Positions 17,298 to 63,913 of a DNA stretch of 64,000 nucleotides are shown here, piece after piece. Location of the stretch: NCBI GenBank assembly GCA_947499565.1, contig CANMOV010000005.1, forward strand, positions 118,891 through 182,890, given 5' to 3'. Under the pieces are notes generated by a model. That model saw only the letters and a list, made by a program, of their open reading frames with translations, made no database searches and was not told where the DNA came from. The position numbers were made by a program, and so were the translations under genes. The DNA is from an uncultured Croceitalea sp. (GTDB lineage: Bacteria > Bacteroidota > Bacteroidia > Flavobacteriales > Flavobacteriaceae). Numbering within the stretch: the stretch's first letter is position 1; each line of letters begins with the position of its first letter.

Positions 17298-17367
17298 GCG
17301 CATGGATCCTTTTTCAATTTTATAGTATTCGGAAAGATAAGCGTAAAATAAAATTGAAATAGGGCGC
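17298..17367 (+). repeat. Conserved hairpin element, copy A
   Basis: This is a 70-nt unit: GCGC (17298-17301), then arm CCTTTTTCAATTTTA (17308-17322). A 26-nt loop follows that contains TTCGGAAAGATAAGCGT. Then come arm TAAAATTGAAATAGG (17349-17363) and GCGC (17364-17367). Arms pair 14 of 15. Copies B (61968-62037) and C (63845-63913, inverted) flank the mob genes of the second element. The arms differ between copies but stay paired, while the loop is conserved. The 66-aa minus-strand frame overlapping it is not considered a gene. Confidence 0.7.
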
Positions 17368-18414
17368 TCCTACAAATTTTAGTTTTATTACTTTTCTCTT
17401 TCCTGATATTTTAGGAGTACCAATAAGAACCAATTGAGTTGAAAAATTATTTAGTAAAAAACACTGTTCAAAATTCAACAAAGAGTTACAAATATTATTT
17501 TTTGCTACAAAATTCTCCATTGTTTACAGGTGTTTCCTCTCCTTTTGTCGCAATTACTAAAAAATTATAATTTACTTTTAGTATAACAATATGATATTCA
17601 ATCAATTAAAAAAAGTAACATCGCTTTAGCGTGTTACCCTCTTGCTTTACATTCTTAGTCCTTCAAGAAGGGCAAAAACTGTAAACATAAAGTGCCTTTC
17701 ACATCAATCAAATTGAACCAAAACAGTCAAAATTTCATTGATTCATAATATTTAGATAAAATCAGATTATCATAAATAATATATAAACCTATTTAGTAAT
17801 AGTTGAAATCAAAAAATGATAAGAAACAGAATATGCGTACCGAACCATCCCATAAAAGGTCAATTAACGAAACAATTAAAAGAGACCAAGAAAAGGACAC
17901 ATTAATTGTCCAGAAGTTGATTTTGTCATACTGTCCCTTAAAATGGCCTTGCATAAAAACGCCTAAAAAACACGCTAATAATCCAAATTTAAACTTTTGT
18001 CTGTTACCTATATTATATATCTTAAAATATTGAATATCAGTATTTAACATATAATTGGGGCATGTTATACAAATTACGGGTATCTTTATAATGTTAAAAT
18101 TCAGAAAGCCCAGATTCATTTAGTCTTGCCCAATTCTCGATTTATTTTCAGCTCTCTTCATTTTTTAAAGCAATAGTGCAAAAAACAATTTTAAGCTAAA
18201 CATAGGCATAGTGACTGTGGTTGGGACACAGTTTGTACAATTAGATTTTTTTTGTGTCACTCATGCTTCTTATGCCCATAAATGATTCTTAATACCCTGG
18301 GCTAATTAGGATTCAAAATAAAAAAATTAGTAACATGAAAAATCCAAGATTCTCACAAAGAATACTGATTTATCAAGGATACTGAACAAAGTATTAAACA
18401 ATAAATATAAAGTA
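17368..18414. other. About 1 kb without a supported gene
   Basis: The stretch is very AT-rich with many stops. Two overlapping frames of 76 and 108 codons on opposite strands (about 17793-18119) lack a convincing start region and composition. A small hairpin at 17615-17637 (GTAACA/TGTTAC with CGCT/AGCG) is seen. The last part (18180-18414) is probably the long leader of the cold-shock gene. Confidence 0.5.
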
Positions 18415-18609
18415 ATGAAAGAAGGAACAGTAAAATTTTTCAATAGTGCCAAAGGTTTTGGATTTATCAAACCCACAGATTCTGATGAGGATGTCTTTGT
18501 TCATCAAAGCGGTCTAATTGACAAGATTGGTGAAAATGACAACGTCAAATTCACTGTCGAGAGAGGCGAAAAGGGAATGAACGCGGTCAATGTTGAATTG
18601 GTCAAATAA
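18415..18609 (+). CDS. Cold-shock domain protein (CspA family)
   Basis: The 64-aa single cold-shock domain has RNP1 (KGFGFIKP, about 13-20) and RNP2 (VFVHQSGL, about 27-34). It is an RNA/ssDNA chaperone. The long AT-rich region upstream fits a regulated 5' leader, as usual for csp genes. A clear terminator follows 24 bp after the stop. Its presence on a mobile island next to an accessory sigma factor is notable. Confidence 0.95.
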   Translation: MKEGTVKFFNSAKGFGFIKPTDSDEDVFVHQSGLIDKIGENDNVKFTVERGEKGMNAVNVELVK

Positions 18610-18632
18610 ACCTGTTATTTTCCAGAACAGTT

Positions 18633-18660
18633 AAAATGCCATCTTTAAAGATGGCATTTT
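18633..18660 (+). terminator. Terminator of the cold-shock gene
   Basis: AAAATGCCATC and GATGGCATTTT form an 11-bp stem around TTTAAA, ending in a T run. It can work in both directions. Confidence 0.8.
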
Positions 18661-18813
18661 ACATCTTGTCTGTTATTTTCTTAATCAGTAACCCAAACTA
18701 ATAATTGATTGCTGATAATCTAGATTTGAAAATAATCGAGATATCTGGATTATAGGAGGGTTCTTGAACCTAATTCGCAACAGTTAAACTGCCTTTTAAA
18801 CGAAATTAAGATA

Positions 18814-19152
18814 ATGATGAGAACGATGTTGATTTTTATATTTCTGATTTCATCGGGCATTTCCTCTACTCAAGAGGCAAGCAAAATAAAAAAAATAGAG
18901 GGGGTCTTTCTTGGGCGTGTTGAGGATGGATATTCATTTTGTTGCCAAACAGCATTGGCTATGGAAGAAATAGTTGTCTTTGATGAGATTCTATCGGTTA
19001 TACTTGAAAAGCATCCACTACATGAGGATAAACACATTGGAGAAAATTTTATCATTTCGTTTACTGAGCATCTTGGGGTTTGGGAAGACGATAAAAAGGA
19101 AACATCCACTGTGATTCGCTTACAAAAGCTTATGCCAGGGCAACACCTTTAA
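18814..19152 (+). CDS. Small secreted protein, unknown function
   Basis: The 112-aa protein has a signal peptide (about 1-19; hydrophobic core TMLIFIFLISSGISS). The mature part starts KKIEGVFLGRVEDGYSFCCQ and ends LQKLMPGQHL. The central Cys pair (about 43-44) and the GRVEDGY strand suggest a small beta domain. No family is recognised. A start at the second Met (residue 2) or at residue 5 is equally possible. Confidence 0.55.
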   Translation: MMRTMLIFIFLISSGISSTQEASKIKKIEGVFLGRVEDGYSFCCQTALAMEEIVVFDEILSVILEKHPLHEDKHIGENFIISFTEHLGVWEDDKKETSTVIRLQKLMPGQHL

Positions 19153-19382
19153 AAGTTATGTTTCAAAATTGGGCCATTAACCAAAATTTTTAGCGCTAAT
19201 TATGATTGATGCATTAACTATTTCAACATATATTGTGAACTTCAGAGGTTTTGAGTCTTACCAATAGTTGAATCTATAAAATCACTGTTTTTAAACCATC
19301 GTGCTGTGGCATGCTTACAGATAGCATTTTGTATCCAATAATAATTGAATCTCATGGTTGCTTCCTTGTGTTGTTAAGCCAT

Positions 19383-19640
19383 TCATACATTAGAGAATAA
19401 AAATACCATAATAGTCAGCAAAGCTGAAATAAGAAGAGTTGTTGAGCTAAAGAGGCGATTCAGCCAGTTGTGTGCTAGTTTACGCAAAAGATTCGTAGGG
19501 TGGTCGCCATAATAATTGTATTGGTATTTTTCAATCATTAGATGTCTATACAGCCCTCTAATGATGCCCACTGTCAAGTGAATAAATAACAACATCGTAA
19601 TCATGAATCCTGCGTTCAAACCCCCAGATATTCTAATCAT
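19383..19640 (-). CDS. Small membrane protein paired with SPFH protein
   Basis: The 85-aa protein has two predicted membrane helices (about 8-29, GFMITMLLFIHLTVGIIRGLY; and 64-84, SSTTLLISALLTIMVFLF) joined by a basic loop with Tyr residues. Its start overlaps the stop of the SPFH gene by 4 bp, so the two are translationally coupled and probably act together. I do not recognise the family. Confidence 0.55.
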   Translation of the reverse strand: MIRISGGLNAGFMITMLLFIHLTVGIIRGLYRHLMIEKYQYNYYGDHPTNLLRKLAHNWLNRLFSSTTLLISALLTIMVFLFSNV

Positions 19641-20494
19641 TTGTTTTTATTGGCATCACCTACTCCAATAAAAGGAATTGCACCTGCACCGGTCACCTCT
19701 GGTAGAATTCCGTTCCATTTTTCTATGGCCTTAAGGTTTGCTTCTATCTTTCTTAGCTCAATAAGGTCTGGTGAAATATTCATTTTTTGTAATCGTAACG
19801 CCTCGGCTTCGGCTGTTGCCGCAGCAATGGTTTGTTCAGCTTCGACCTTTATCCTATCCAAGTCTCTTTTTGCCTTCAACGCATTTTGTTCAGCCGTTTG
19901 CTTAGCTTCAATGGCATCTGTAAAGGTTTGGGAAAAACTAAATGAGATAATCGAAAAAGCATCAACCGATATGTTGGACGCGAGCAATCTTGAAGTGAGT
20001 GCTTGTTGCATTTCGGTACTGACAGCCGGCCTCTTAGTGATCAATTCCTCGGCTGTATATCTGGCGGACACTGCTTTCATTACTTCCTGAATGGCGGGGT
20101 CAATGATACGTTCTTTAAATTCCATGCCAATGGTTTGATAAACCAAGTTTGCCTTATCGGGTATAATGTGATAATTGAGGGCCACGGATAAATCCACATC
20201 CTGTAAATCAGATGAGGAAGAAGCTGCATCTGTCATAGCCTTTTGAATTTTTACGTCCATTAGAATAACGGTCTGTACAATAGGTATTTTGAAATGGATT
20301 CCCTCATTCAAGACGTTCTCCTGTACAGCACCAAAATTCTGGACAACTCCTCGCTCACCTGCGCCAATCTGAACCCATGGTTTAAATGCAAACAGTAATA
20401 TTATCAATGAACCAATAACGAACAATTTTCTCCATTGACCTTTTTTCAGTATGTTCTTTATTTCGCCCATAGGGTCATTATCCATAATAATCAA
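19637..20494 (-). CDS. SPFH/prohibitin family membrane protein
   Basis: The 285-aa protein has one N-terminal membrane helix (about 24-41) and the Band-7/SPFH domain starting GAGERGVVQNFGAVQENVLNEGIHFKIP (about 45-75). A long Ala/Glu-rich coiled coil follows (about 195-240, AIEAKQTAEQNALKAKRDLD...). The C-terminus is the prohibitin-type IEKWNGILPEVTGAGAIPFI. Such proteins form membrane cages that hold quality-control proteases or structure membrane domains. ATG at 20485 (residue 4) is an alternative start. Confidence 0.88.
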   Translation of the reverse strand: MIIMDNDPMGEIKNILKKGQWRKLFVIGSLIILLFAFKPWVQIGAGERGVVQNFGAVQENVLNEGIHFKIPIVQTVILMDVKIQKAMTDAASSSSDLQDVDLSVALNYHIIPDKANLVYQTIGMEFKERIIDPAIQEVMKAVSARYTAEELITKRPAVSTEMQQALTSRLLASNISVDAFSIISFSFSQTFTDAIEAKQTAEQNALKAKRDLDRIKVEAEQTIAAATAEAEALRLQKMNISPDLIELRKIEANLKAIEKWNGILPEVTGAGAIPFIGVGDANKNK

Positions 20495-20583
20495 GTTTAA
20501 TTATAAAGATAGGATTTCACGTATCCAAGCATGTTGTACTAATCCAGGACAATCTTACATAAATCACACATGCAGAATTTGAG

Positions 20584-20817
20584 ATGAGATGCTATTGGCT
20601 CAAGTCTTGCCAATTAAAAATTTGTTGTCTTAAAAAAGAGGTGATTTTGGCACAAAAGAAAGCATTGGACTATTCGCCCCTAGCGGAAGATTTTTTCAAA
20701 CCAAAAGGGCATTTTAAGATTCAGCAAGGCGTTCTATGGGTGTTTGACAACTATATGGCCTTTTGCGCTTTAGAGAGGTCTTGTCAGCAGGCCGAAAGTG
20801 TCAAGAATTTAAGTTAA
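20584..20817 (+). CDS. Doubtful 77-aa ORF
   Basis: The frame contains a sensible-looking stretch (ALDYSPLAEDFFKPKGHFKIQQGVLWVFDNYMAF), but the N-terminus is irregular and no homologue is recognised. It could be a remnant of a longer gene or chance coding. Confidence 0.22.
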   Translation: MRCYWLKSCQLKICCLKKEVILAQKKALDYSPLAEDFFKPKGHFKIQQGVLWVFDNYMAFCALERSCQQAESVKNLS

Positions 20818-20966
20818 AAAATAGCTCATACTGGCTATTTATATGTTTTAGTATCTTGTTAAACTTACCCTAATCATGTTACATTAGACTATCTTTACTT
20901 CTTATAAAATGTGTAGATAAGGGTGTGTATTACGCCTATCTCAAGCAAGTAAATAGAGAAGGAATT

Positions 20967-21089
20967 ATGAAGCAGATAAAGAAAGGATTTCAGGACAGTA
21001 ATAGTGGTATTGAAAGGCCATTGTCACGCCATGAGAGTTGGAAAAATAACCGTAGGCATACTGCCTTAAAATTAATACGGTTTTCTTAG
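20967..21089 (+). CDS. 40-aa basic small protein
   Basis: ATG at 20967 follows AGAGAAGGAATT, a good purine-rich ribosome site. The 40 residues are basic (MKQIKKGFQDSNSGIERPLS and a HESWKNNRRH segment) and end 14 bp before a strong terminator at 21104. Start region, length and terminator together make a small expressed gene plausible. The function is unknown. Confidence 0.4.
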   Translation: MKQIKKGFQDSNSGIERPLSRHESWKNNRRHTALKLIRFS

Positions 21090-21103
21090 GGACTAGAAAT
21101 GTT

Positions 21104-21129
21104 AAAGAGGGCTTTCGCCCTCTTTTTTG
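21104..21129. terminator. Bidirectional terminator between convergent units
   Basis: AAAGAGGGC and GCCCTCTTT (21104-21112, 21117-21125) with loop TTTC and a T run on the plus strand; A residues before it give a T run on the minus strand too. It lies between the 40-aa ORF (plus) and the end of the dipeptidase operon (minus). Confidence 0.8.
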
Positions 21130-21178
21130 TTGAACATCTTTTTGTCCAACATATCCATTTTCAGTATGCTCTGCACAA

Positions 21179-21853
21179 TCAGGTAATGGGTCCGTAAATG
21201 GCAAATTCCTTTTCTTTTTCAATGGTCCAAATGGTATTGCCATAATCAAAATGCCAATACTCCTTTAGGTCACATGCAAAATCTTCATCTTCAAATAAAT
21301 TGATGAGCAGGGCTCTATTTTTCTTCACCTCGGGACTAATATCCGGATAGTAGGGATAGCACTTTTTTGAAAGGTCAATCTCTAATCCGTTGTTGGTGCC
21401 AAAGTCCATCACACAATCTTCGATCTTATCATATATCAAAGCGTCTACTGCGCCACCTGTCACATGCATGGACTTTGTAGGGCGCGCGATGAAATAACTA
21501 ATGATCTGTTTAATATCGCCAATCGATTTTTCTGGATGGTTTTTTTTAAAGTAAGCAAATGTGGTCTCCCAAAGAAGTTGTTGATGTTCAAAAGACCTCC
21601 AAGCGGAGCGAATTATCAGAATTTTATCTTGTTTGTCCAATACTTTGCTTATCCGGCCTATTTTTTCAATAATAGCCTCCCGGACCAAGTATTGATAATC
21701 CTTCATAATAGATGGTTCAAAAATCAAATTAAAATTCGTGTCCATCAAACTCACCAGTTGCGAATGATTTTCTCGAATCCAAATGGAGGGGGCTAAAAGT
21801 TTATGCTGAAGGTCTTTTGTCTCGACCGCTTCACAGTACGCTTGCACATTCAT
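21179..21853 (-). CDS. M15 family D-Ala-D-Ala dipeptidase-like protein (VanX-like)
   Basis: This zinc dipeptidase-like protein acts on D-amino-acid dipeptides or related linkages. With the start at ATG 21853 (MNVQAYCEAVE) it has 224 aa; the longer start (21892) lies further inside the racemase gene. The M15 zinc site is visible: SMHVTGGAVD (H130, D137) and EYWHFDYG (general base E198, H201). RSAWRS near 85 matches the VanX substrate-Arg region. There is no signal peptide, so it should be cytosolic, as VanX is. It overlaps the racemase gene by about 23 bp and ends the operon. Confidence 0.78.
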   Translation of the reverse strand: MNVQAYCEAVETKDLQHKLLAPSIWIRENHSQLVSLMDTNFNLIFEPSIMKDYQYLVREAIIEKIGRISKVLDKQDKILIIRSAWRSFEHQQLLWETTFAYFKKNHPEKSIGDIKQIISYFIARPTKSMHVTGGAVDALIYDKIEDCVMDFGTNNGLEIDLSKKCYPYYPDISPEVKKNRALLINLFEDEDFACDLKEYWHFDYGNTIWTIEKEKEFAIYGPIT

Positions 21854-22916
21854 ATAGGTTGATCGTGTTTTTTGAAATGTTTGGAGTGCCAAATGCCCTT
21901 AATAGCGCACAATAATTGAGGTCGAAGGCTACGGTATCGCCCACTTTTAAACTTGTTTCGGTATTATCTATCAACATATGATCACTACTAGCCCCCAACA
22001 CAATTATTTTTTGTTTTGGAGTAATTCCTGAAACCATGACATCTTGCATTCCAATCGCGAGAACGGCTCTATCCATCAAGCCTTTATCCTCAAACTTTGG
22101 AGTATCACCATTCGCGTTTTGATATACTTCCCCATAGGGTTGTGATGGTTTTCGTTTTGCTTCGATAACCTCGGCCAGAAGAGTAAAGATATCAGTAAAA
22201 AGTCCTGGTATCGGTTTTCTACAAAGTGCTTCCCTACCTAAAAAAATAGATTCGCCCAATCGTAAGCTATTAATTCTGCCCACATCTTTTGAAGAGGTAA
22301 ACCAGTTATAATTTGCAGAGTTTCCGCCAGAGACTATTGCCAAGGTAATTTTAAATTTTTCTTCCAAACGTATGGCTATTGAAGACAGCAGGTTCATTTT
22401 ATCTGCATCAGGGCTTATTCCGCCAAAGCATGCAAGATTCGTTCCTATGCCTACCAAGGCCAGGCCTTCCAATTTTAGCACCTCTTTTACAATGGCATTC
22501 ATTTCCGAAGGCATAATTCCTTCCCGTAAGTCTCCAAGCTCTACCATAAGAACAACCTTATGTATGATACGGTTTCTTAATGCATATTCCGAGAGTTTCT
22601 TTAGAACTTCCAATTCAGAATTTAGACTTATGTGGGTATGGATAATTACCTCTTCCACTTGACTGAGCGCAGGTGTTCTGAGTAACAGGTATTGTGCCCG
22701 TATACCCGCTTTTCGCATTTTTATAATATTTGAAATTCTAGAGTCTGCAAGAATTTCAATGCCATTCTTGACCAAGATATCAGCAATTATTGGATTCCCT
22801 CCAATCACTTTGGTGACCCCTATTACATTAATTCCCTTAGCACCATACAGTGTTTTTAACTGTTGCACGTTGTGGGCGATTTTTTCCAAATCTATATCTA
22901 TCCTAGGTAGTTTCAA
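21831..22916 (-). CDS. Alanine/ornithine racemase-family PLP enzyme
   Basis: The 361-aa protein has the alanine racemase type III fold: PLP Lys36 in VIGVTKVIGG at the end of the first strand, LMVELGDLREGI (about 125-136), GIGTNLACFGG (about 160) and VSGGNSANY (about 195). Closest in plan to the alanine/ornithine racemase group (Orr-like) rather than the housekeeping Alr. It is expected to interconvert or epimerise an amino acid at C-alpha; the substrate is unknown. It overlaps the DUF1611 gene by 4 bp (ATGA) and the dipeptidase gene at its other end. Confidence 0.8.
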   Translation of the reverse strand: MKLPRIDIDLEKIAHNVQQLKTLYGAKGINVIGVTKVIGGNPIIADILVKNGIEILADSRISNIIKMRKAGIRAQYLLLRTPALSQVEEVIIHTHISLNSELEVLKKLSEYALRNRIIHKVVLMVELGDLREGIMPSEMNAIVKEVLKLEGLALVGIGTNLACFGGISPDADKMNLLSSIAIRLEEKFKITLAIVSGGNSANYNWFTSSKDVGRINSLRLGESIFLGREALCRKPIPGLFTDIFTLLAEVIEAKRKPSQPYGEVYQNANGDTPKFEDKGLMDRAVLAIGMQDVMVSGITPKQKIIVLGASSDHMLIDNTETSLKVGDTVAFDLNYCALLRAFGTPNISKNTINLYECASVL

Positions 22917-23992: not shown

Positions 23993-24003
23993 AAGTTTTA
24001 TTA

Positions 24004-24195
24004 TTAGTTGTCCGAAGTGATAGTGCTACCTTCATAAGGTTTTAATTCCCTTTCAAAATAGACCTGTTCATTAACGTTAGGTTCATTCTGGAGGGTACAA
24101 TAATAGACACTGCGAGCATACAATCGTACAACAAGTGCAATTGAAGGACTTACCTTAGTACATACTACATCTCCTATTTCGAACCGTTTTACCAT
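24004..24195 (-). CDS. Small beta-barrel-like protein of the D-amino-acid operon
   Basis: The 63-aa protein begins MVKRFEIGDVVCTKVSPSIA and continues with alternating hydrophobic strands (LVVRLYARSVYYCTL) and FERELKPYE. The 'GDvV..k....p' start resembles SH3/KOW-like folds of the DUF2158 kind. It lies 11 bp before the DUF1611 start and 36 bp after the cupin gene, all on one strand. The function is unknown. Confidence 0.55.
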   Translation of the reverse strand: MVKRFEIGDVVCTKVSPSIALVVRLYARSVYYCTLQNEPNVNEQVYFERELKPYEGSTITSDN

Positions 24196-24231
24196 TGTGC
24201 CAATTCCCTATTATACATTCAAGCGCTACTG

Positions 24232-24561: not shown

Positions 24562-24612
24562 AGTTGAGTAATTAAGGCATGAATAAGATATATGACATCT
24601 GCCTTTTTCTCC

Positions 24613-24729: not shown

Positions 24730-24909
24730 AGTTTTTATTTTTTATTGATTTATGGAAGTGAAACGGCGACCACGAACAGTATTAAAAAAAACACAAAACT
24801 GATAACGCATTTTCTCATGGAGTATACTTTATCATTGCTGCTTTCAATATAAAATTGCTTCACATAAACAATGGCTACTGCAACACCAACCCTTTTGCCC
24901 TTTTACGAA

Positions 24910-27490: not shown

Positions 27491-28711
27491 TCATAGGGAG
27501 TTCAATTCTAACTGATAGGAATCAAGTATGTTGCTTGGTAAGGACTTAAGATAAATTTGTGTAGTACTTAATTTATTGTGCCCCATCATAGCGGAAATTG
27601 CCTCTAAAGGAACTTTTTTGAACATAGCATGTGTTGCAAAACTATGTCTGGAGACGTAGGATGTCAAACGTTCTTCAATACCACATTTTTTAGCTATTTC
27701 TTTCAGCCCAATATTATATCTTCTTAGTTCCCATTGAGCATCTTTGTACTGTAACTCTATAGTGTCTCTATAAATTATAGGTAATAAAAAACCAGATGGA
27801 TTGGGATAATCCAAATAGTATTGAATTATGGGTTTAATCTGATTTGTAATAATTATATCATAGCGTTTTCCTGTTTTTCGTCTTTGAAATTTGACACGAC
27901 CATCGATAAAATTATCTCTTCTCAAAAAAGCCATATCAATAAAGGACATGCCTAACATGAGGTAGGAGAGGATAAAATAATTTCGATAGTGAAAATGATT
28001 TGAACCTACCTCGGTTTTCATTTCTAATATTTTCTTTACACTCTCAATTTTAATTGCTCTTTTTTCTGTTGGCTTTGTTTTAATGATGTAGTATTTAAAA
28101 GGATATAGAGATTCATCAACCATACCTTCCTTGATGCCCTTGTTGTAAATTGCCTTTATTGTCCTCATGTAAGATGCTATTCCATTAATGGAATTACCCG
28201 GTTTTGATAAATGGTGTCTTTCAAACCGTTTTAAGAATTCAATGTTGAGCTCATTGAATTTTAGATCCCTGTTGTTTGTAAATCCTTTTAGTCTGCCAAT
28301 GATTCCCGAGTAATTTCTGGAAGTTCCAATTCGTTTTTCTTTTTTAAGCTCTTCAGCCTTTTTAAGACCAAATTCATAGAAGGAATTGAATCGCTTTCGG
28401 TTAACTATTTTATCGGCAATATCTTTGGCGGTAAGTCTATCTAGTTGATCATTATCGGCCAGTTTATTGATAACCTCTTGTGCTTTAACTTGTTTTTTCA
28501 ATAAAAGAGTATTCAATAGGTGAACTGAGTCAATATCTGGAAAATTTCTTTTTATTTTACATCTGTGATGATCCCAGTATTCCTCTGGTACATAATGGCC
28601 TGTTTTTATCGAAGTGGTTTTTCTAAAATGGGTCAGTCTCAAAATGATGGGAAAACATCCACTTTGGGTCATTCTACGGGTGTCCAAACTTAGTTTTATA
28701 CTCGTGTTCAT
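27491..28711 (-). CDS. Tyrosine recombinase / phage-type integrase of the island
   Basis: This enzyme catalyses integration and excision at tRNA-Asn. With the start at ATG 28711 (MNTSIKLSLDTRR) it has 406 aa; the upstream ATG (28753) overlaps the 22-bp arm repeats and is less likely. It has an N-terminal arm-binding domain, a SAM-like core-binding domain (about 90-185) and a C-terminal catalytic domain. That domain contains the SRHSFATHAM box (Arg and His), MMGHNKLSTTQIYL and the nucleophile Tyr about 20 residues from the end. The gene lies directly inside attR. Confidence 0.93.
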   Translation of the reverse strand: MNTSIKLSLDTRRMTQSGCFPIILRLTHFRKTTSIKTGHYVPEEYWDHHRCKIKRNFPDIDSVHLLNTLLLKKQVKAQEVINKLADNDQLDRLTAKDIADKIVNRKRFNSFYEFGLKKAEELKKEKRIGTSRNYSGIIGRLKGFTNNRDLKFNELNIEFLKRFERHHLSKPGNSINGIASYMRTIKAIYNKGIKEGMVDESLYPFKYYIIKTKPTEKRAIKIESVKKILEMKTEVGSNHFHYRNYFILSYLMLGMSFIDMAFLRRDNFIDGRVKFQRRKTGKRYDIIITNQIKPIIQYYLDYPNPSGFLLPIIYRDTIELQYKDAQWELRRYNIGLKEIAKKCGIEERLTSYVSRHSFATHAMFKKVPLEAISAMMGHNKLSTTQIYLKSLPSNILDSYQLELNSL

Positions 28712-28730
28712 GAACATAAGGTATAAAAAA

Positions 28731-28752
28731 ATTTGCACGCAATTTGCACGCA
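28731..28752 (+). repeat. Right integrase arm-type tandem repeat
   Basis: A 22-bp copy identical to 17178-17199 (two TTTGCACGCA units), located between the integrase start and attR. Confidence 0.65.
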
Positions 28753-28858
28753 AAAAGTTGGTTTCAATTGATTTTGTTTGACAACAAAAATTATTAAAAC
28801 ACTGATATTCAATAAAATATACAATTTTTAAAACTTACTTGTACCCCATTCGCCAACG

Positions 28859-28901
28859 CTGTTAATCAGAGGGTCCTTGGTTCGAGCCCAAGAGGAGGAG
28901 C
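28859..28901 (+). repeat. attR: 43-bp copy of the tRNA-Asn 3' part
   Basis: Perfect copy of 17089-17131 without the 5' half of the tRNA. It is followed immediately by the ancestral tRNA terminator. Confidence 0.93.
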
Positions 28902-48881: not shown

Positions 48882-49753
48882 GGTTTTGTTTTTTTAAACC
48901 CATGGACTATTTGTCCCAAAAAATCTTTTGGTAATTTTTCGTCTCCAGGAAAGCCTAATTCTAAATTCCCACTGTCTTCAGGAATATAATTGGTTTTAAA
49001 CAGATAATCCCAAAGGCTAAGACTTATTCCAAAATTAACCCCATATTTCCCCTCGGGTAGTTCATAGGAGTGATGGTATAAATGCATCACAGGGTTATTT
49101 AAAAGATATTTTAAGGGTCCCCAAGTAATTTTAATATTAGAATGGTTAAAATGCCCAATAGTAATAGCTGCAAAATGGACAATATAAGCTTGTTCAGGCT
49201 CAAAACCACCTAGCACCATTACACCAAAGGTTTTTAAGGGTTTATAGAAAATATTTTCCATCCAATGGTAACGTAAATGTGCGGCAAACCCCATTTCTTT
49301 TACGCTATGGTGTACTTTATGAAACTGCCATAGAAAAGTATATTTATGCAATAAAATATGGGTAAACCATTGTACAAAATCCAGTACTATAAAAAAGACT
49401 ACTAACTGTAGCCACATTGGCCAGGAAGAGGGGTCTATAAAAGCTAAACTTTTGGCAGTAATACCAATATCATTGAACAACACCCCTAGCATTTTATATA
49501 CACCACTTATGGCAATAGCAAAGAGGAAGAAGTTGAAAAACATATAAAAACCATCTAACCAAAAGTCTTTTCTAAAAATGGACTGCTCTTTACGCCAAGG
49601 GAAAACAATCTCTAAAATCCAGACAAAAAGTGAGATAATAATTAGACCCCAAAAATAATTGTTATACCAGGGCACTTCAAAGAGTATGGATTTCCAGGTC
49701 CAACTTAATGTGCCATTAAATGCACTTATGAATGCGTCAATATATTTTTCCAT
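48878..49753 (-). CDS. Sterol desaturase / fatty acid hydroxylase family protein
   Basis: The 291-aa integral membrane di-iron enzyme has four helices and the His boxes of the superfamily: HILLH (about 132), HKVHH (about 145), HLRYHW (about 158) and HLYHHS (about 225-230). The substrate is probably a lipid or carotenoid acyl or ring carbon but cannot be fixed from sequence. Its first bases are duplicated at 51089, beside the sulfurtransferase gene, showing that the two genes were once neighbours. Confidence 0.88.
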   Translation of the reverse strand: MEKYIDAFISAFNGTLSWTWKSILFEVPWYNNYFWGLIIISLFVWILEIVFPWRKEQSIFRKDFWLDGFYMFFNFFLFAIAISGVYKMLGVLFNDIGITAKSLAFIDPSSWPMWLQLVVFFIVLDFVQWFTHILLHKYTFLWQFHKVHHSVKEMGFAAHLRYHWMENIFYKPLKTFGVMVLGGFEPEQAYIVHFAAITIGHFNHSNIKITWGPLKYLLNNPVMHLYHHSYELPEGKYGVNFGISLSLWDYLFKTNYIPEDSGNLELGFPGDEKLPKDFLGQIVHGFKKTKP

Positions 49754-49845
49754 AGCTATTGTAAAGTTACGGTAATACTATCTTTTTCTAAAGGTAAGTC
49801 TTTGTAGTAGCTCCATTCTGACCAAGACCTATCATAATTTTTCAT
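49743..49845. repeat. About 103-bp direct repeat, left copy
   Basis: It resembles 51089-51193 at roughly 80 percent by eye. It spans the desaturase start and the end of the sulfurtransferase. The two copies flank a 1.24-kb insertion carrying a toxin/immunity-like gene pair. Confidence 0.75.
49756..49845 (-). pseudogene. Duplicated 3' fragment of the two-domain sulfurtransferase
   Basis: Translated on the minus strand it reads MKNYDRSWSEWSYYKDLPLE and continues to VTLQ, which matches the C-terminus NYDGSWVEWSYYGDLPIK...VILQ of the gene at 51102. The stop is at 49756-49758. Only about 29 codons remain. Confidence 0.8.
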
Positions 49846-51000: not shown

Positions 51001-51088
51001 TTGTTAATTTCTTTTTCTTTTGAGAAGAACTTACCTTTCTATTCGTTGCAAACTCATAAAATAAAAATGAGTAAAAAATGCCTTCAAG

Positions 51089-51193
51089 TATTTTTCCATA
51101 GCTATTGTAAAATTACGGTACTACTATCTTTTTTTATGGGTAAATCCCCATAATAACTCCATTCTACCCATGAGCCATCATAATTTTTTACAT
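51089..51193. repeat. About 105-bp direct repeat, right copy
   Basis: This is the intact end of the sulfurtransferase gene plus a remnant of the desaturase start (CAT at 51097-51099 matching 49751-49753). See the left copy. Confidence 0.75.
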
Positions 51194-55665: not shown

Positions 55666-55668
55666 TTT

Positions 55669-56301: not shown

Positions 56302-56305
56302 GCTT

Positions 56306-56350: not shown

Positions 56351-56367
56351 CAATGAGATTCTTATAA

Positions 56368-58086: not shown

Positions 58087-58096
58087 TGAGAGTTTG

Positions 58097-58141
58097 TGTA
58101 ACTGAAGTCACAATAATTACGAGTTACTTTCAATAAATTTG
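58097..58141 (+). promoter_or_regulatory. Crp-type site S4 and -7 element of the MBL-rhodanese operon
   Basis: TGTAACTGAAGTCACA (58097-58112), then TAAATTTG (58134-58141, perfect). Spacing to the -7 element and to the ATG (46 nt) is the same as at sulP. Confidence 0.72.
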
Positions 58142-58158
58142 TATAGAAATAGAGAAGG

Positions 58159-59568
58159 ATGAATATAGAACAGATATATACAGGATGTTTGGCTCAAGGA
58201 GCTTATTATATAGAGAGTGAGGGGGAAGTTGCGATTATTGACCCGCTTAGAGAAGTGAAACCCTATTTAGAGCGTGCGAAAAGAGATAATGCAAAAATCA
58301 AATATATTTTTGAGACCCATTTTCACGCAGATTTTGTTAGTGGCCATGTTACCCTCTCGAAGGAAACAGGAGCACCTATTGTTTATGGCCCTAATGCTAA
58401 CCCTTCTTTTAAAGCTACCATAGCTACGGATAATCAAGAATTTAAATTGGGTAAGATTACAATAACAGCATTGCATACTCCAGGGCATACTATGGAGAGT
58501 ACTACCTATCTTCTTAAGGATGAGAATGGGAAAGATCATGCGATTTTTAGTGGTGACACGCTGTTTTTAGGTGATGTAGGGCGACCAGATTTAGCGCAGA
58601 AAGCTGCAACAATGACTCAGGAAGAATTAGCAGGAATACTTTATGATAGTTTACGTACTAAGATTATGCCCTTGGCAGATGATGTAACAGTTTATCCAGC
58701 TCACGGAGCGGGATCAGCATGTGGTAAAAACATGATGAAAGAGACGGTTGATAGTTTGGGCAATCAAAAGCAAATGAATTATGCTTTACGCGCTAATATG
58801 ACCAAAGAGGAATTTGTGAAAGAAGTTACGGACGGGCTTTTACCACCACCGCAATATTTTCCTTTAAATGTAAAAATGAACAAAGAAGGCTATGAAGATA
58901 TTCATGAGGTCATTGAAAGAGGGATAACAGCACTTTCGCCCAATGCATTTGAAACTGCTGCAAATGAAACTGGAGCTATAGTGCTTGATGTGCGTCACCA
59001 AAACGATTTTGCTAAATCACACATACCACGTTCCATTTTTATTGGTTTAAAAGGAGGTTTTGCTCCATGGGTAGGTGCATTAATAGCAGATGTAAAACAA
59101 CCGTTGCTTTTGGTTACAGATAAAGGAACAGAAGAAGAGGCAATAACACGATTGTCACGTGTTGGATTCGATGGTACATTAGGATATTTAGATGGCGGAA
59201 TTGAAGCCTGGGAAAAAGCGGGTAAAGAAATTGATACTGTAGAAAGTATCTCTGCGGACACCTTTAAGGAAAGACTAGAAAGTACTATCCCTGTATTTGA
59301 TGTTAGAAAGGAAGCTGAGTTTAGTGCTGAGCATATTGAAAATGCAAAACTGACACCGCTAGATTTTCTAAATAATCATTTATCAGAATTTCCTCAGAAA
59401 GAGACTTTTTATGTGCATTGCGCAGGAGGCTATCGTAGTATGATAGCGGCCTCTATTTTAAAAAGTAGGGGAATTCACAATTTAATTGATGTTGCCGGTG
59501 GAATGGCTTCCATAAAAAAAGCAGGAATTCCGGTAACTGATTTTGTATGCCCAACCACTCTAAAATAG
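58159..59568 (+). CDS. MBL-fold persulfide-dioxygenase-like protein with two rhodanese domains
   Basis: In the 469-aa protein the N-terminal metallo-beta-lactamase domain has THFHADFVSGH (His54, His56, Asp58), TPGHT (about 112) and SGDTLFLGDVGRPD (about 130-143), as in ETHE1/Blh persulfide dioxygenases. Rhodanese domain 1 (about 265-360) has no active Cys (VTDKGTEEEA). Domain 2 (about 370-469) has the loop HCAGGYRS (Cys421). It is likely to oxidise glutathione- or protein-bound sulfane sulfur to sulfite, the substrate of the molybdoenzyme encoded nearby. Confidence 0.9.
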   Translation: MNIEQIYTGCLAQGAYYIESEGEVAIIDPLREVKPYLERAKRDNAKIKYIFETHFHADFVSGHVTLSKETGAPIVYGPNANPSFKATIATDNQEFKLGKITITALHTPGHTMESTTYLLKDENGKDHAIFSGDTLFLGDVGRPDLAQKAATMTQEELAGILYDSLRTKIMPLADDVTVYPAHGAGSACGKNMMKETVDSLGNQKQMNYALRANMTKEEFVKEVTDGLLPPPQYFPLNVKMNKEGYEDIHEVIERGITALSPNAFETAANETGAIVLDVRHQNDFAKSHIPRSIFIGLKGGFAPWVGALIADVKQPLLLVTDKGTEEEAITRLSRVGFDGTLGYLDGGIEAWEKAGKEIDTVESISADTFKERLESTIPVFDVRKEAEFSAEHIENAKLTPLDFLNNHLSEFPQKETFYVHCAGGYRSMIAASILKSRGIHNLIDVAGGMASIKKAGIPVTDFVCPTTLK

Positions 59569-59575
59569 TTTTAAA

Positions 59576-59950
59576 ATGAATACATCCAAACTCACTTTTT
59601 TTATTTTAAGCATGTTTCTTTTTGCCTGCCAAACTAATAAAGGACAAACCATTAAAATTGTAAACAAAGAAGCTATTAAAGCTGATGTTATAGGGAAACA
59701 AACGCAGCTTATAGATGTGCGAACTGCTGAAGAATATGAATCTGGGCATATTGATAATGCGGTAAATTATAACATTATTAATAGAGATACTTTTCTAATC
59801 CAAGTTCAAAAACTTGATAAAAACCAACCTGTTTACCTGTATTGTAAAATGGGAGGTAGAAGTAATAGAGCGGCAAACTTACTGAAAGAGCAAGGCTTTA
59901 AAAAAATATATGATTATTCTGGGGGCTATAATGATTGGGTTACAGAATAA
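59576..59950 (+). CDS. Single-domain rhodanese lipoprotein
   Basis: The 124-aa protein has a lipoprotein signal (lipobox FAC, Cys 18) and one rhodanese domain with active loop YCKMGGRSN (Cys90). It starts 8 bp after the MBL-rhodanese gene and should accept or deliver sulfane sulfur in the periplasm. Confidence 0.88.
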   Translation: MNTSKLTFFILSMFLFACQTNKGQTIKIVNKEAIKADVIGKQTQLIDVRTAEEYESGHIDNAVNYNIINRDTFLIQVQKLDKNQPVYLYCKMGGRSNRAANLLKEQGFKKIYDYSGGYNDWVTE

Positions 59951-59983
59951 CTACACCAATACTTCTTTAATAATTTTTTAAAT

Positions 59984-60541
59984 ATGGAAAGAATACTACA
60001 ACCATGGCCTTGGTATGTATCAGGGCCTTTAATTGCTTTAATCATGGCAATTTTAATGCTATTAGGCAAGCGTTTTGGAATGTCCTCAAATCTAAGAACA
60101 CTATGCAGTGTTGCTGGTGGAGGTAAGGCTGCGGAGTTGTTCCGATTTGACTGGAAAGCACAGCGCTGGAACCTAATTGTGGCTATGGGAGCAGTAATAG
60201 GTGGTTACATAGCTATTAATTTTTTAAGTGGCGATACGGCAGTTGCTATAAATGAAAACACTGTCGAAGCATTAAAAGAACTTGGCGTTAAAGATGGTGG
60301 AAAAGAATATATGCCATCTCTATTATTTGGTGTAGAAGCATTTTCTAGTATAAAAACATTAGGATTGTTACTTATTGGAGGATTTTTGGTAGGTTTTGGT
60401 GCTAGATACGCCGGGGGATGCACCTCAGGTCATGCGATATCAGGATTAAGTAATCTGCAATTACCATCTCTAATTGCAGTTATTGGTTTTTTTGCAGGGG
60501 GTTTATTGATGGTACATTTTATTTTCCCTTTAATTTTTTAG
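59984..60541 (+). CDS. YeeE/YedE family sulfur transporter half
   Basis: The 185-aa membrane protein has about five helices and the signature GFGARYAGGCTSGHAISGLS (about 137-156), whose Cys relays thiosulfate or persulfide sulfur in TsuA-like proteins. It is paired with the next gene (4-bp gap), so the two halves probably make one transporter. Confidence 0.88.
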   Translation: MERILQPWPWYVSGPLIALIMAILMLLGKRFGMSSNLRTLCSVAGGGKAAELFRFDWKAQRWNLIVAMGAVIGGYIAINFLSGDTAVAINENTVEALKELGVKDGGKEYMPSLLFGVEAFSSIKTLGLLLIGGFLVGFGARYAGGCTSGHAISGLSNLQLPSLIAVIGFFAGGLLMVHFIFPLIF

Positions 60542-60545
60542 TGTT

Positions 60546-60959
60546 ATGCGAAGTGTAATTTATTTAGTGGTAGGGGTCTTTTTTGGGATTGTTATGTTCA
60601 AATCTGAGGCTGCCTCTTGGTTTAGAATATATGAGATGTTCAGATTCGACACTTTTCATATGTATGGAATTATTGGCTCTGCCTTGTTTATAGGAGTGAT
60701 TTTCACCCAATGGATTAAAAAAGCAGGAACAAAATCAGTTTTTGGAGAGAAGATTATAATTGCAGCTAAGGAAAAATCTTTTGCACGTTATGCACTAGGC
60801 GGAATATTATTTGGTTTAGGTTGGGCATTAGCTGGTGCTTGTCCAGGACCTATGTATACCTTATTAGGAGCCGGCTTTTTACCTATTCTTATTGTAATTA
60901 TTGGCGCACTTTTAGGAACATTTTGTTATGGTTTGTTAAAAAAGCGATTACCTCATTAG
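60546..60959 (+). CDS. YeeE/YedE (DUF6691-type) second half-transporter
   Basis: The 137-aa membrane protein has four helices (about 4-21, 38-54, 76-99, 108-128) and the motif ALAGACPGPMYTLLGAG (about 95-111), the counterpart of the Cys motif in the preceding half. The pair is found next to rhodanese and MBL-rhodanese genes in many bacteria. It ends the sulfur operon. The 274-bp stretch downstream to 61233 has no gene. Confidence 0.87.
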   Translation: MRSVIYLVVGVFFGIVMFKSEAASWFRIYEMFRFDTFHMYGIIGSALFIGVIFTQWIKKAGTKSVFGEKIIIAAKEKSFARYALGGILFGLGWALAGACPGPMYTLLGAGFLPILIVIIGALLGTFCYGLLKKRLPH

Positions 60960-61233
60960 GGTCCATTTTTTAATTAAAAATGCCACTATGCATTTCAATG
61001 AAAATTGATCAATTCGAATGATTTTTCTAGGCAACATTTAGAAAAATTGTACCTGCCTGCCTGTAGGCTGGTCGAGAATCAGAATTTTTAGATTAAAAAC
61101 TTTTTCCTCTGAATAAAACTCCAATATATATCGGTCAAAAGGTGTTTTTTACATCACATAGGGACTTTATGACCTTAAAACGAGTATTTAGTACGCAAAC
61201 AAAAGTATCGTTTTAGCTTTGTAAGCGAATTAG

Positions 61234-61677
61234 ATGGGTCCCCAAATCATCCAACAAAAGCTTATGCAACGTAACATCTGTATTATCGATGATGATTTAG
61301 TATCACAATTTGCTACCCGCTATTGTATAGAACAGTATAGTGAGAACTTTGCTATTTCGACATGTGCAGACGCGGAAGAGGCCTTAGTGGTACTATCCGA
61401 ATTGATACTTCAAAATAAAGAACTCCCTGATATTATTTTTCTGGATTTAATAATGGGAGATATGAATGGTTGGGAGTTTCTAGATAACCTAAAAAAACTT
61501 TCTAAGGGCAAGAAATTGCCAGAAATATATGTTTTATCTGCCTTTGTAAATTCGAAAGATAGGGCAATAGCTAAAGAGCATGCGTTAATCGATGGTTATA
61601 TAGATAAACCACTTTCTAGAAATAGTTTGGATAAGATTTTTGCAGCTAAGACGAATAGTGAATCTTCTTCTATGTAG
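61234..61677 (+). CDS. Stand-alone response regulator receiver
   Basis: The 147-aa receiver domain has acidic pocket D19-D21 (CIIDDD), phosphoacceptor D71 (IIFLDLIMGDMNGW) and Lys in YIDKPLSRN. No output domain. ATG 61264 (MQRNICIIDDD) is an equally likely start and is the usual form in Flavobacteriia. The stop codon lies inside the first att-like repeat at 61673-61690, so the element integrated right at the gene's end. Confidence 0.85.
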   Translation: MGPQIIQQKLMQRNICIIDDDLVSQFATRYCIEQYSENFAISTCADAEEALVVLSELILQNKELPDIIFLDLIMGDMNGWEFLDNLKKLSKGKKLPEIYVLSAFVNSKDRAIAKEHALIDGYIDKPLSRNSLDKIFAAKTNSESSSM

Positions 61678-61690
61678 CCCCGGCAAGAAT
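61673..61690 (-). repeat. tRNA-3'-like att sequence, copy 1
   Basis: The 18-bp TGTAGCCCCGGCAAGAAT is repeated at 61767-61784. It overlaps the response regulator stop codon. On the minus strand it reads like a tRNA 3' end. Confidence 0.55.
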
Positions 61691-61766
61691 TATTTCGACA
61701 GGCTCAATATAGACTTCGATTCAAAAGCTTTGCTTTTCCATACTTCGTATGATTGCGTGTCTACTT

Positions 61767-61790
61767 TGTAGCCCCGGCAAGAATCGAACC
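61767..61790 (-). repeat. tRNA-3'-like att sequence, copy 2
   Basis: The minus strand carries a T-loop sequence GGTTCGATTC followed by TTGCCGGGGCTACA, as at the 3' end of a tRNA (Arg-type by resemblance). The rest of the cloverleaf is missing. A complete tRNA is expected at the far end of the element, beyond 64000. Confidence 0.6.
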
Positions 61791-61967
61791 TTTCCCTTAG
61801 ACTCCTTTATTTAAAAGACTTTCAGTTTTTTAAGATTTTCAATGTTGACGATTTGTGAACTTTTTTGATGACTATACTTTCGTAATTATAAATGTAGTCA
61901 AAAGAACCTAAATGGGATAAATTTCATTTAGAACTAGAAACTTTCCCAAATCTTACCTTTGAACTTT

Positions 61968-62037
61968 GCGCGTGGATCCTGTTCTAATTTTATAGTGTTC
62001 GGGAAGATAAGCGTCAAGTAAAATTGGAACAGGGCGC
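61968..62037 (+). repeat. Conserved hairpin element, copy B
   Basis: A 70-nt unit of the same length and layout as copy A: GCGC, arm CCTGTTCTAATTTTA (61978-61992), loop containing GTTCGGGAAGATAAGCGT, arm TAAAATTGGAACAGG (62019-62033), GCGC. It lies directly behind the last gene of the mob operon. Confidence 0.7.
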
Positions 62038-62040
62038 ATT

Positions 62041-62421
62041 CTACTTTTGATTTTGGAACTCTATTTTTTGCTCCTCATGAAGTATTACTTCTTTTTTGTT
62101 TTGCACTACTTGGAAACTTAAATAACCGATAACAATGATTAGCATTATTAGTGCAGATAAAAAGAGTACCAACAACCATTTCAGAATAAGCTTTGCTCGT
62201 TTAAGCTTTTGGTTGATTTCATTCAGTCGCTGTTGATTTTGTGATTGAATCTGTTCCAGTTTTCTGAAGTGTTCTTTTATGTGGTATTCTATATTGGAAG
62301 TATCCGCTTTCACCTTTACCTCATTTAGGTTTTTTGAAAGACTCGCTAACTTTTTAATTGACTTTTGAAAACTATTGATTTCGTCCGTCAACAGTTCCAT
62401 TATTTCATCCATTTTTTTCAT
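62041..62421 (-). CDS. Coiled-coil membrane protein of the mob operon (DUF6730-like)
   Basis: The 126-aa protein has a long helical, Gln/Lys/Glu-rich region (about 1-75, coiled coil) and one membrane helix (about 79-104, ILKWLLVLFLSALIMLIIVIGYL), then a charged tail. It follows the relaxase gene by 12 bp and is a regular partner of relaxase genes in flavobacterial elements. It may link the relaxosome to the membrane (inference). Confidence 0.7.
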   Translation of the reverse strand: MKKMDEIMELLTDEINSFQKSIKKLASLSKNLNEVKVKADTSNIEYHIKEHFRKLEQIQSQNQQRLNEINQKLKRAKLILKWLLVLFLSALIMLIIVIGYLSFQVVQNKKEVILHEEQKIEFQNQK

Positions 62422-62433
62422 AACATTCTCTTT

Positions 62434-63303
62434 TTAAATTCCCATTCCCAGATCAATTACCTTCTTAATTGTTTTCTTTACTATTCGCTTCGCTAATACT
62501 GTGGCGATATTGGTGCTAAGTTGAACCGCTTTTCCTTCAAGTTTCATCGTTGGTATGTTTTGTTTGGTTATTCCTTTATTTCTGTTATTTGAAATTTGAA
62601 AGATTATTTTTCCTCCCGACATGGAACGATGAACTTCACTTCCCTTTAGGTTCTGTCCTTTGTACTCAAATCGAAAGCCCTGAAGCTTGTTTTGTTTGTT
62701 TATACTTGGGATTACTTTGATGTTCTTTTCTTTCATCAGTTTGATATAGGCATCCAGGCTTTTCGGTCTTTCAGTTTTTATTAACTCCTCATGTGTTTGT
62801 TTTATCTCGTTTCTTTTCTGTTTGATTTGGTAAAGTCTTTGGTGCTGGATGTCCCTTGCATTGGTCAGTCCCATTTCCCTTGCTACTTCATAAGCTTTCT
62901 GTTGGCTTCTTTTTCCAATAAAGCTGTCCTTATATGTCTTTCCATCAAATCCTACCCTGTTTACATATAAATGGATATGGACGTGTTCTTTGTTCCGATG
63001 TACAAAAGCGATTGCCTGTCTTTCTTTCAAGTCCATTGCCTTAATGAATTTTTTTGTGAGTTCCTTCAACTCTTGTTTGGATAGTCTTTTGCCATCTTCA
63101 ATACTTGGACTTAAAACAAAGCTTAAAGTGTTTCTTTGTGTTCTTTGGTTCTGCGATTGGATGATTTTGAACTCTTCTGTTATCTCTTTGGGATTCTCCC
63201 CAGCCAAATGTTGGCTATGGATAATCTCTGCATCCTTCTCTTGGTTCCAACCATAAGAGATGGAAGCCTTGGTGTGTGATATGGATTTTCCCTTTCCTAT
63301 CAT
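62434..63303 (-). CDS. Relaxase / mobilisation nuclease
   Basis: The 289-aa HUH endonuclease nicks DNA at the transfer origin. The metal-binding motif HVHIHLYVNR (H107, H109, H111) is clear, preceded by AFVHRNKE. The N-terminus MIGKGKSISHTKASISYGWN holds a Tyr (residue 17) suited as the nucleophile. It is the short Bacteroidetes-type MobA/MobB protein. It overlaps mobC by 4 bp. Confidence 0.9.
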   Translation of the reverse strand: MIGKGKSISHTKASISYGWNQEKDAEIIHSQHLAGENPKEITEEFKIIQSQNQRTQRNTLSFVLSPSIEDGKRLSKQELKELTKKFIKAMDLKERQAIAFVHRNKEHVHIHLYVNRVGFDGKTYKDSFIGKRSQQKAYEVAREMGLTNARDIQHQRLYQIKQKRNEIKQTHEELIKTERPKSLDAYIKLMKEKNIKVIPSINKQNKLQGFRFEYKGQNLKGSEVHRSMSGGKIIFQISNNRNKGITKQNIPTMKLEGKAVQLSTNIATVLAKRIVKKTIKKVIDLGMGI

Positions 63304-63596
63304 TTATTGAAGTTGTAAAGATGGTTTCGTATTTCATTGGCCAAGTCTTCTACTTCTTTGGAAAGCTTTGGGTTCCTTTTCTTGAACATATTGCTTATCC
63401 GTTTAAAGTTGTTCTTGTACTTGACCAACAGGGCATAACGTTCCAATTGTTCTGGGGTCAAACGTTCGATAATATTATGGCCAAAAGCGGAACTACGGCA
63501 ATATTCGGATAGGGAAAGTCCAGCTCGTTTTGCTTTGAGCTTGAGCATCTTTTTTTCATAGATGCTACACCGGAACTGGATGAACTCCCTTTTCAT
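63300..63596 (-). CDS. mobC: Relaxosome accessory protein MobC
   Basis: ATG 63596 (MKREFIQFRCSIYEKK) is preferred, giving 98 aa with the ribbon-helix-helix MobC domain: FIQFRCSIYEKKMLKLKAKRAGLSLSEYCRSSAFGHNI, then a helical C-terminus. The longer frame from 63680 adds a non-matching stretch. MobC binds the transfer origin and helps the relaxase nick it. Confidence 0.85.
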   Translation of the reverse strand: MKREFIQFRCSIYEKKMLKLKAKRAGLSLSEYCRSSAFGHNIIERLTPEQLERYALLVKYKNNFKRISNMFKKRNPKLSKEVEDLANEIRNHLYNFNK

Positions 63597-63844
63597 TTTC
63601 TTTTTTTCTTTTGCGACCTTCGGGAGAAAAAGCAAGATTGTCATGACAATGACACATCTTGAATTGACTCTCAACTTCAAAGTAGCCTTAAAGTCAAATG
63701 AGAATAAAAAGTGCCAATATTTTAACTAGAAAAGAGGAGTTCTTTTAGAATAAGTTCAATGAAAGAAAAGATTCAATGTGATTTTAAAAAAGAGAATGTC
63801 TAGTCTAAGATAAAAGACTACTATAAAACAAAATACCAACATAT

Positions 63845-63913
63845 GCGCCCTATTTGATTTTTGATTTACGCTTATCTACCGGAACACTATAAAAATCAAA
63901 CAGGTTCCTGCGC
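63845..63913 (-). repeat. Conserved hairpin element, copy C, inverted
   Basis: The minus-strand unit has GCGC, arm CCTGTTTGATTTTTA, loop containing TAGTGTTCCGGTAGATAAGCGT, and the right arm with AATCAAATAGG, GCGC. It lies upstream of mobC, a usual position of a transfer origin. An 8-bp inverted repeat TGGTAAGT/ACTTACCA (63924-63931, 63941-63948) adjoins it. Confidence 0.7.

Follow-up and report, generated by a model that had tools for sequence, protein, structure and literature searches.

A conserved hairpin module of Flavobacteriaceae islands, distinct from two candidate origins of transfer and possibly acting as folded single-stranded DNA

Introduction

Hairpins that are recognised in single-stranded DNA (ssDNA) by RNA polymerase or primase are known from Frpo and from the single-strand initiation (ssi) sites ssiA and ssiB of RSF1010, of which the latter two are inverted and lie on opposite strands. 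Mobilization (mob) genes normally enter the recipient last. For the integrative and conjugative element (ICE) ICEBs1, an excerpt of PMC4595007 describes the single-strand origin (sso) sso1 as a stem-loop region that depends on orientation and helps the element to be acquired stably; according to the same excerpt, virtually nothing was known, as of 2015, about second-strand formation after entry for any ICE. Here we describe a conserved hairpin that occurs three times in a 64,000-nucleotide (nt) stretch from an uncultured Croceitalea sp. of the Flavobacteriaceae (assembly GCA_947499565.1, contig CANMOV010000005.1, positions 118,891 to 182,890, forward strand; the whole stretch is referred to as the window). 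The hairpin appears to be an undescribed part of the island transfer machinery. With a probability of roughly 40%, we read it as an island module that acts as folded ssDNA in transfer, perhaps as a start site for the complementary strand. Three transfer parts can now be told apart in these Flavobacteriaceae, namely two candidate origin families and a common hairpin module, and the hairpin offers a concrete site for asking how entering islands become double-stranded.

Structure and distribution of the hairpin

The three stem-loops were recovered exactly where a first-pass annotation of the window had placed them, the third being inverted (Table 1). As that annotation had described, their stems of ~14-15 pairs differ in letters and yet remain paired in every copy, whereas the loop TATAGTnTTCnGnnAGATAAGCGT and an outer GCGC/GCGC pair are common to all. 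DNA folding z-scores relative to shuffled sequences are -2.9, -4.2 and -3.5 for copies 1, 2 and 3, and the loop pattern, with up to three mismatches, matches the window at these three places only (chance expectation 0.02). Conservation extends beyond the stem-loop over a unit of ~105-123 nt, in which a left box, CCCCAAATCTTACC, is followed by a short spacer, the outer GCGC helix, a left bulge, a 15-pair stem, the structured loop and a weaker right flank, CCTACTTTTG. Neither the window hairpins nor the copy 2 region gave an Rfam match, and no T-run directly follows the stem.

A covariance model built from nine copies of the own genome found ten matches in that genome, not three, and 107 matches in 37 of 299 genomes of the family. 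The counts given below refer to 100 of these matches; the other seven, from five genomes and in part weak, were left out. With stricter filters, samples of the order (196 genomes) and of the phylum (296) each returned a single genome, the own one; since both consist mostly of genomes of the same family, they are a poor test of the absence of the hairpin outside it. The exact loop pattern occurs in 115 stretches of named genomes, and the best 80 of the 115, which were examined, belong mostly to Flavobacteriaceae genera (Maribacter, Muricauda/Allomuricauda, Arenibacter, Kriegella and their kin), with a few broadly labelled metagenome-assembled genomes. A phage origin was discarded, as the single loop-pattern stretch on a viral contig (L259) is unconfirmed by the covariance model, and the same applies to the hairpin on a contig labelled Elusimicrobium (L211). 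Plasmids yielded no blastn match to the hairpin, and the 25 model matches at E<=10 in eight plasmid stretches with MbpB-type relaxases include none better than E 0.6.

The nine own copies, aligned with MAFFT, show a double change at 8 of 20 pairs. In a structure-free MAFFT alignment of the 100 copies, 2058 of 2196 cells are paired (94%; 1905 Watson-Crick, 153 G-T), and double changes affect 18 of 22 pairs, in 320 cells. When the pairing register is slid by 1-2 positions, only 44-51% of the cells are paired; double changes then still touch 11-18 pairs, yet amount to 33-117 cells compared with 320 in the true register. The covariance search and compensatory-change test that the first-pass annotation had called for thus gave a clear excess of double changes over slid registers, and the selected structure that it had postulated is upheld. 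Up to six pair types occur in the variable middle of the stem, as counted in a model-fitted alignment that leans towards structure, and a pair hidden in the loop is Watson-Crick in 100 of 100 copies (T-A 83, C-G 10, A-T 7). G-T cells exceed A-C cells by 147 to 30, with one conserved G-T pair supplying 75; for the variable stem core of the structure-free alignment the counts are 35 and 2. Because the complement would show A-C instead, the large excess of G-T identifies the GATAAGCGT strand as the selected folding strand. The structure is under strong selection on this strand, though many of the copies are related and not independent. An outer CCAAATC/GATTTGG helix was rejected as a general part of the unit: at least six exact pairs are present in 18 of 86 cases, and the helix overlaps coding sequence.

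Genomic setting

The hairpin stands where an operon of DUF6730, relaxase and NikA has its 3' end, next to bfmA, or immediately behind a tyrosine integrase gene. Of 97 hairpins with neighbours of at least 100 amino acids (aa), 26 have DUF6730 on the right, 18 BfmA, 6 a relaxase, 3 NikA, 3 an integrase and 41 an unlabelled neighbour; on the left, 24 have an integrase. DUF6730 is present in 18 of the 37 hairpin genomes and in 17 of the 262 without a hairpin match; for DUF5712 the corresponding counts are 23 and 60. Random scatter was not seen in this locus survey, which supports the proposed link of the hairpin with mob genes and with islands that have no recognised relaxase.

Copy 1 lies inside a tRNA-Asn island, ~133 bp off the tRNA end. 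Copy 2 and the mob operon are convergent, the copy lying at the operon's 3' end, and copy 3 lies upstream of nikA and of its candidate origin and is oriented as both; the right end of the window is the contig end, and the view stops just past copy 3. The bracketing of the mob operon by copies in opposite orientation, already noted in the first-pass annotation, holds for the window and recurs at L049 and L084. No direct repeat was found in the 7.5 kb surrounding the L049 island. Terminal inverted repeats of a transposon were considered and rejected, as just ten further boxes occur in 87 loci, four of them inverted after bfmA. At L012:10606, L015:8960, L016:9082 and L050:9070, a second inverted box without hairpin lies 31 bp after the bfmA stop codon. 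At L117 and L126, hairpins lie close to where a trmE/mnmE-like gene ends (name read from the translation), a gene that is a known island insertion point elsewhere. A 40 kb plasmid-like contig (L123; G222:C3) has a weak hairpin match of 56 bits upstream of a DUF5712-type gene.

Candidate origins of transfer

Two other conserved motifs occupy the places where an origin of transfer (oriT) would be sought. The first, oriT1, is an inverted repeat with a tail, CAAGATGTGTCATTGTCATGACAATCTTG-CTTTTnCTCCCGAnGGTCGCAAA, and lies upstream of nikA/mbpA; the centre of its repeat is variable and its tail conserved. Scored by distance for all 27 relaxases of the window's size class, oriT1 lies at most 900 nt upstream of 26, and the 27th is cut by its contig with <400 nt available; four relaxases of ~760 aa are without it. 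A loose pattern of the oriT1 tail is present in 30 of 87 hairpin loci and in 7 of 12 other loci, the latter being L356-L360, from three genomes without hairpin matches, and plasmid stretches of Tenacibaculum (L127) and Myroides (L128). All 13 DUF6730 loci in hairpin-less genomes have the tail, and five of them a well-placed repeat.

The second motif, oriT2, is unlike oriT1 and reads AATAGCAAGAGGGTAACACGCTAAAGCGATGTTAC upstream of bfmA; where bfmA is linked to a hairpin, 17 of 20 upstream regions contain its core 10-mer, which 27 of 30 DUF5712 operons have as well. The copy in the tRNA-Asn island is ~315 bp from the hairpin centre. An excerpt of PMC10865816 reports that BtgA, a member of the family of BfmA, binds the pBFTM10 oriT, and this pointer, together with position, inverted repeats and conservation, makes oriT1 and oriT2 putative origins. 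The matches listed in our literature search, which leave work on pIP421, cLV25 and Tn4399 largely uncovered, include no account of such a hairpin; nor do they include the oriT1 or oriT2 strings or DUF5712/BfmA origins, although the uncovered work on these elements and on pBFTM10 may describe related Bacteroides origins.

One or the other motif lies within 8 kb of 70 of the 100 hairpins (reversed-letter controls 0). Of 59 hairpins without a recognised relaxase nearby, 36 have an origin candidate (29 oriT2, 1 oriT1, 6 both), where absence of a relaxase is approximate, as the calls are based on two sequence clusters and some contigs are cut. Five hairpin loci without recognised relaxase (L013, L068, L072, L080 and L106), which are among the 30 with the oriT1 tail, carry both candidates and look as if open to two helper types. 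Three other loci (L094, L102 and L121), in which the hairpin stands beside a ~760 aa relaxase with neither motif, perhaps represent a third mobilization system with the common hairpin. Separation of the parts leads to predictions of which helper could mobilise which relaxase-less islands. For the tRNA-Asn island, mobilisation in trans had been suggested by way of the hairpin; this route found no support. Mobilisation as such becomes more plausible, by way of the oriT2 candidate and with genes elsewhere in the genome as a possible helper. The own genome has one row (L390) made up of an oriT2-like motif, a gene placed like bfmA, DUF5712 and a coupling protein, with TraG-, TraM- and DUF4138-type genes 11-17 kb beyond (L391); together they are a plausible helper for the island.

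Hairpin and origin are arranged with a marked polarity. When the nearest origin of each kind is taken per hairpin (76 pairs), the origin lies on the 3' side of the hairpin in 75 (oriT1 37/38, oriT2 38/38), and the two are antiparallel in 55 (oriT1 33/38, oriT2 22/38). Among 80 loci picked by one loop type, a set that overlaps the 76 pairs in part (e.g. Kriegella), 50 have an origin, which is on the 3' side in 50 of 50 and antiparallel in 49 (controls 0). Parallel cases cluster in other loop types; the rule of 3' side and antiparallel orientation is strong, not universal.

Table 1. Features of the window and the chromosomal array of the own genome
Feature	Position	Strand	Remarks
Hairpin unit, copy 1	17264..17388	+	stem-loop 17298-17367; covariance model 118 bits
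Hairpin unit, copy 2	61934..62056	+	stem-loop 61968-62037; 127.4 bits
Hairpin unit, copy 3	63824..63948	-	stem-loop 63845-63913; 97.6 bits
oriT1 candidate	63608..63661	-	CAAGATGTGTCATTGTCATGACAATCTTG inverted repeat, then CTTTTTCTCCCGAAGGTCGCAAAAG
oriT2 candidate of tRNA-Asn island	17615..17649	-	AGCAAGAGGGTAACACGCTAAAGCGATGTTAC; motif also upstream of bfmA in DUF5712 operons
NikA-like/MbpA mobilization protein	63300..63680	-	MbpA above cutoff
Relaxase, MbpB-like	62434..63303	-	PF03432; 91 bits, below MbpB cutoff 400
DUF6730 protein, last mob operon gene	62041..62421	-	mbpC position in a Bacteroides plasmid
tRNA-Asn	17057..17131	+	3' 43 bp (17089-17131) repeated at 28859-28901 = island ends
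Tyrosine integrase of tRNA-Asn island	27491..28753	-	
Tandem array, own genome	L350:5560-6420 (G000:C3:413631-414298)		39-nt hyperconserved core

Since oriT1 falls inside the long open reading frame of nikA, the real start of NikA is probably the ATG at 63594-63596. The tRNA-Asn element has the marks of an island, namely an integrase and direct repeats at its two ends, one of them in the tRNA gene. Elsewhere in the window, three 103-nt direct repeats of 62-78% identity are spaced by ~735 in three consecutive genes (2380-3955), which are probably tandem paralogues, and two 112-nt direct repeats (49731-49842 and 51077-51188) are 80% identical and 1346 apart.

Possible functions of the hairpin

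The three parts could cooperate in the following manner: the hairpin strand would usually be the transferred strand. As it enters the recipient, it would fold and recruit a host or island factor, such as RNA polymerase or primase, which may then start complementary-strand synthesis in an sso/ssi-like way; in the window, where the mob operon has a copy on each strand around it, either strand would be served. A site acting as ssDNA is the simplest reading because folding needs a single strand, no consistent transcription is seen and the elements have a single-stranded stage. Selection of the structure on one strand, as expected of an sso or ssi, is observed.

Several observations weigh against this function. 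The hairpin matches no known sso, and the likeness of the loop TAGYGT to the CS-6 motif of ssoA is weak. One strand rule does not cover all loci, since 21 pairs are parallel (sixteen oriT2 and five oriT1), and many loci are related by descent, so that the counts are not independent. Neither origin lies within 8 kb of 30 of the 100 hairpins, including some beside ~760 aa relaxases. Thirty sampled DUF5712 loci of ~4 kb each yielded no hairpin, but four other DUF5712-type genes are adjoined by one (L052, L063, L067 and L123). Some operons of this kind do without the hairpin, which is therefore dispensable: among 13 DUF6730 loci that lack it, three retain the left box beside the DUF6730 end, and the other ten show no such box. 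Finally, the small-RNA-like flanks are unexplained by an ssDNA site.

These flanks match the core of a chromosomal array. Box and right flank, without the hairpin, correspond to the array core between sodB- and purF-like genes of the own genome (names read from translations). With <=3 mismatches, the array core CCCAAATCTTACCATGAACTTAACCTACTTATGCTATGG is present in 99 of 299 family genomes, in 1-7 copies often ~200 bp apart (reversed control 0); it occurs in 28 of the 37 hairpin genomes, and a shorter core in eight of the nine others. On the opposite strand of the array, each unit comprises a promoter, the core and a terminator-like hairpin, and from this layout the units may be tandem small-RNA-like genes. 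Five arrays matched no Rfam family at threshold; the best sub-threshold match, STnc40 (43.4 of 45 bits, both strands), probably stems from the terminator hairpins. In six genomes the array box is one base shorter, and their eight analysed hairpins have five short boxes, three that are unclear by rule (shortened on reading) and none that is long; outside these genomes, 3 of 91 hairpins are short, 80 long and 8 unclear. The matched short boxes may indicate coupling or shared descent. A second tandem array (L352; G129:C9 ~58824-59430), with a terminator-like hairpin after each unit, has its box on the strand complementary to the RNA of the first array and is possibly an antisense or sponge counterpart.

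The hairpin could accordingly be a structured RNA, or a 3'-untranslated-region regulator at the end of an integrase or mob mRNA, whose flanks CCCCAAATCTTACC..CCTACTTTTG pair with or mimic the host small RNA. We consider this doubtful, though less so than the other alternatives: the match of the flanks to the 39-nt core and the shared short box speak for it, the tolerance of G-U fits RNA, and an integrase in the same direction ends just upstream in 23 of the 97 hairpins. However, the orientation of non-integrase left neighbours is near random (39 same direction, 34 opposite), the strand that folds is complementary to the small RNA, the mob mRNAs represent the other strand, and the hairpin region is without Rfam match. 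Nor does either strand have a fixed promoter: in a scan of 110-130 nt, covering the sigma-A type only, mean promoter mismatches are 3.14 versus 3.33 in shuffled sequence on the plus strand and 3.01 versus 3.27 on the minus strand, whereas the control chromosomal array has a promoter at a fixed place, 11 nt, in 17 of 31 cases. On these grounds we rejected an RNA gene driven by a sigma-A promoter of its own, and the ssDNA site is favoured over a structured RNA because neither strand has a fixed promoter or a consistent transcriptional context.

It is unlikely that the hairpin itself is the origin, nicked by a relaxase of the island or of a helper, as the first-pass annotation had proposed as one possibility. 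Like an oriT, it adjoins relaxase or accessory genes or sits on elements that might be mobilised in trans, including loci without recognised relaxase; 30 hairpins have no other candidate at <=8 kb, and GGATCCTG/T at the stem base resembles YATCCTG/Y, the nic consensus of MOBP. An oriT should also have no better-placed competitor nearby, and here one or both of two conserved candidates lie within 8 kb of 70 of the 100 hairpins. As the oriT of the mbp-type operon the hairpin was rejected, the usual place of the origin being held there by the oriT1 candidate, with or without hairpin: operons that lack the hairpin retain oriT1 or its tail. Moreover, a single hairpin type goes with two mobilization systems of differing motifs, and the model finds nothing convincing in the MbpB-type plasmid stretches. 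The hairpin is probably a part separate from the transfer start site.

A site of single-strand recombination, similar to attC, at which integrase and mobilization modules are swapped, is improbable. The hairpin does sit between diverse integrase and attachment-site (att) sides and diverse mob modules, and three related junctions without hairpin retain the left box; among the genes at the junction none was recognised as a dedicated recombinase, and the integrases are ordinary island integrases, some of them far away. That the hairpin terminates or insulates transcription at the edge of the island is still less to be expected: although the hairpin often lies between convergent genes, near the tRNA end in the window, and an end terminator of Tn916 acts as an insulator according to an excerpt of PMC11658703, the stem has no T-run directly after it, and conserved loop letters, loop pair and flanks would be unexpected for a terminator.

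Least of all do we expect that the host small RNA, which is hyperconserved and multicopy, anneals across the hairpin base on incoming ssDNA, where both sides of the hairpin would show its complement, and that it licenses or primes the second strand or marks the incoming strand for silencing. The tie to such an RNA is unexpected, and, if the idea were true, a host small RNA would act directly on conjugated ssDNA.

Comparison with known systems

The oriT of MbpA/MbpB-type Bacteroides mobilizable plasmids is similar in that an mbpA/mbpB-type operon adjoins the hairpin; it differs in that a separate repeat occupies the usual oriT place and the hairpin is unconvincing in plasmid stretches. With attC of integrons, the hairpin shares imperfect pairing, selection of one strand and compensatory change in the stem, whereas R/L boxes are not seen by eye and neither an adjoining integron integrase nor a cassette array is present. 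The FopS multicopy small RNAs of Bacteroides (RF04319), which an excerpt of PMC11697453 treats, are alike in so far as the array that the hairpin flanks resemble is multicopy and chromosomal and has promoters of the Bacteroidetes type. Similarity of the array to the FopS seed is local and weak (18 bits, 56 needed; 55 and 58 of 2000 shuffles equally good), and membership is not claimed; the kinship is marginal and may serve as a lead only.

ICEBs1 sso1 and the sso of pBAA1 come close to the proposed function as stem-loops on mobile elements that are active as ssDNA and orientation-specific, as given in the excerpt of PMC4595007. They differ in phylum, in the lack of a sequence match and in having three hairpins instead of one long one, and the orientation rule of the present hairpin is not universal and its activity is predicted only. 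Frpo and RSF1010 ssiA/ssiB differ in that no cognate primase was identified here, many hairpin loci being without a primase gene of the labelled clusters; as in the window, ssiA and ssiB form an inverted pair on opposite strands.

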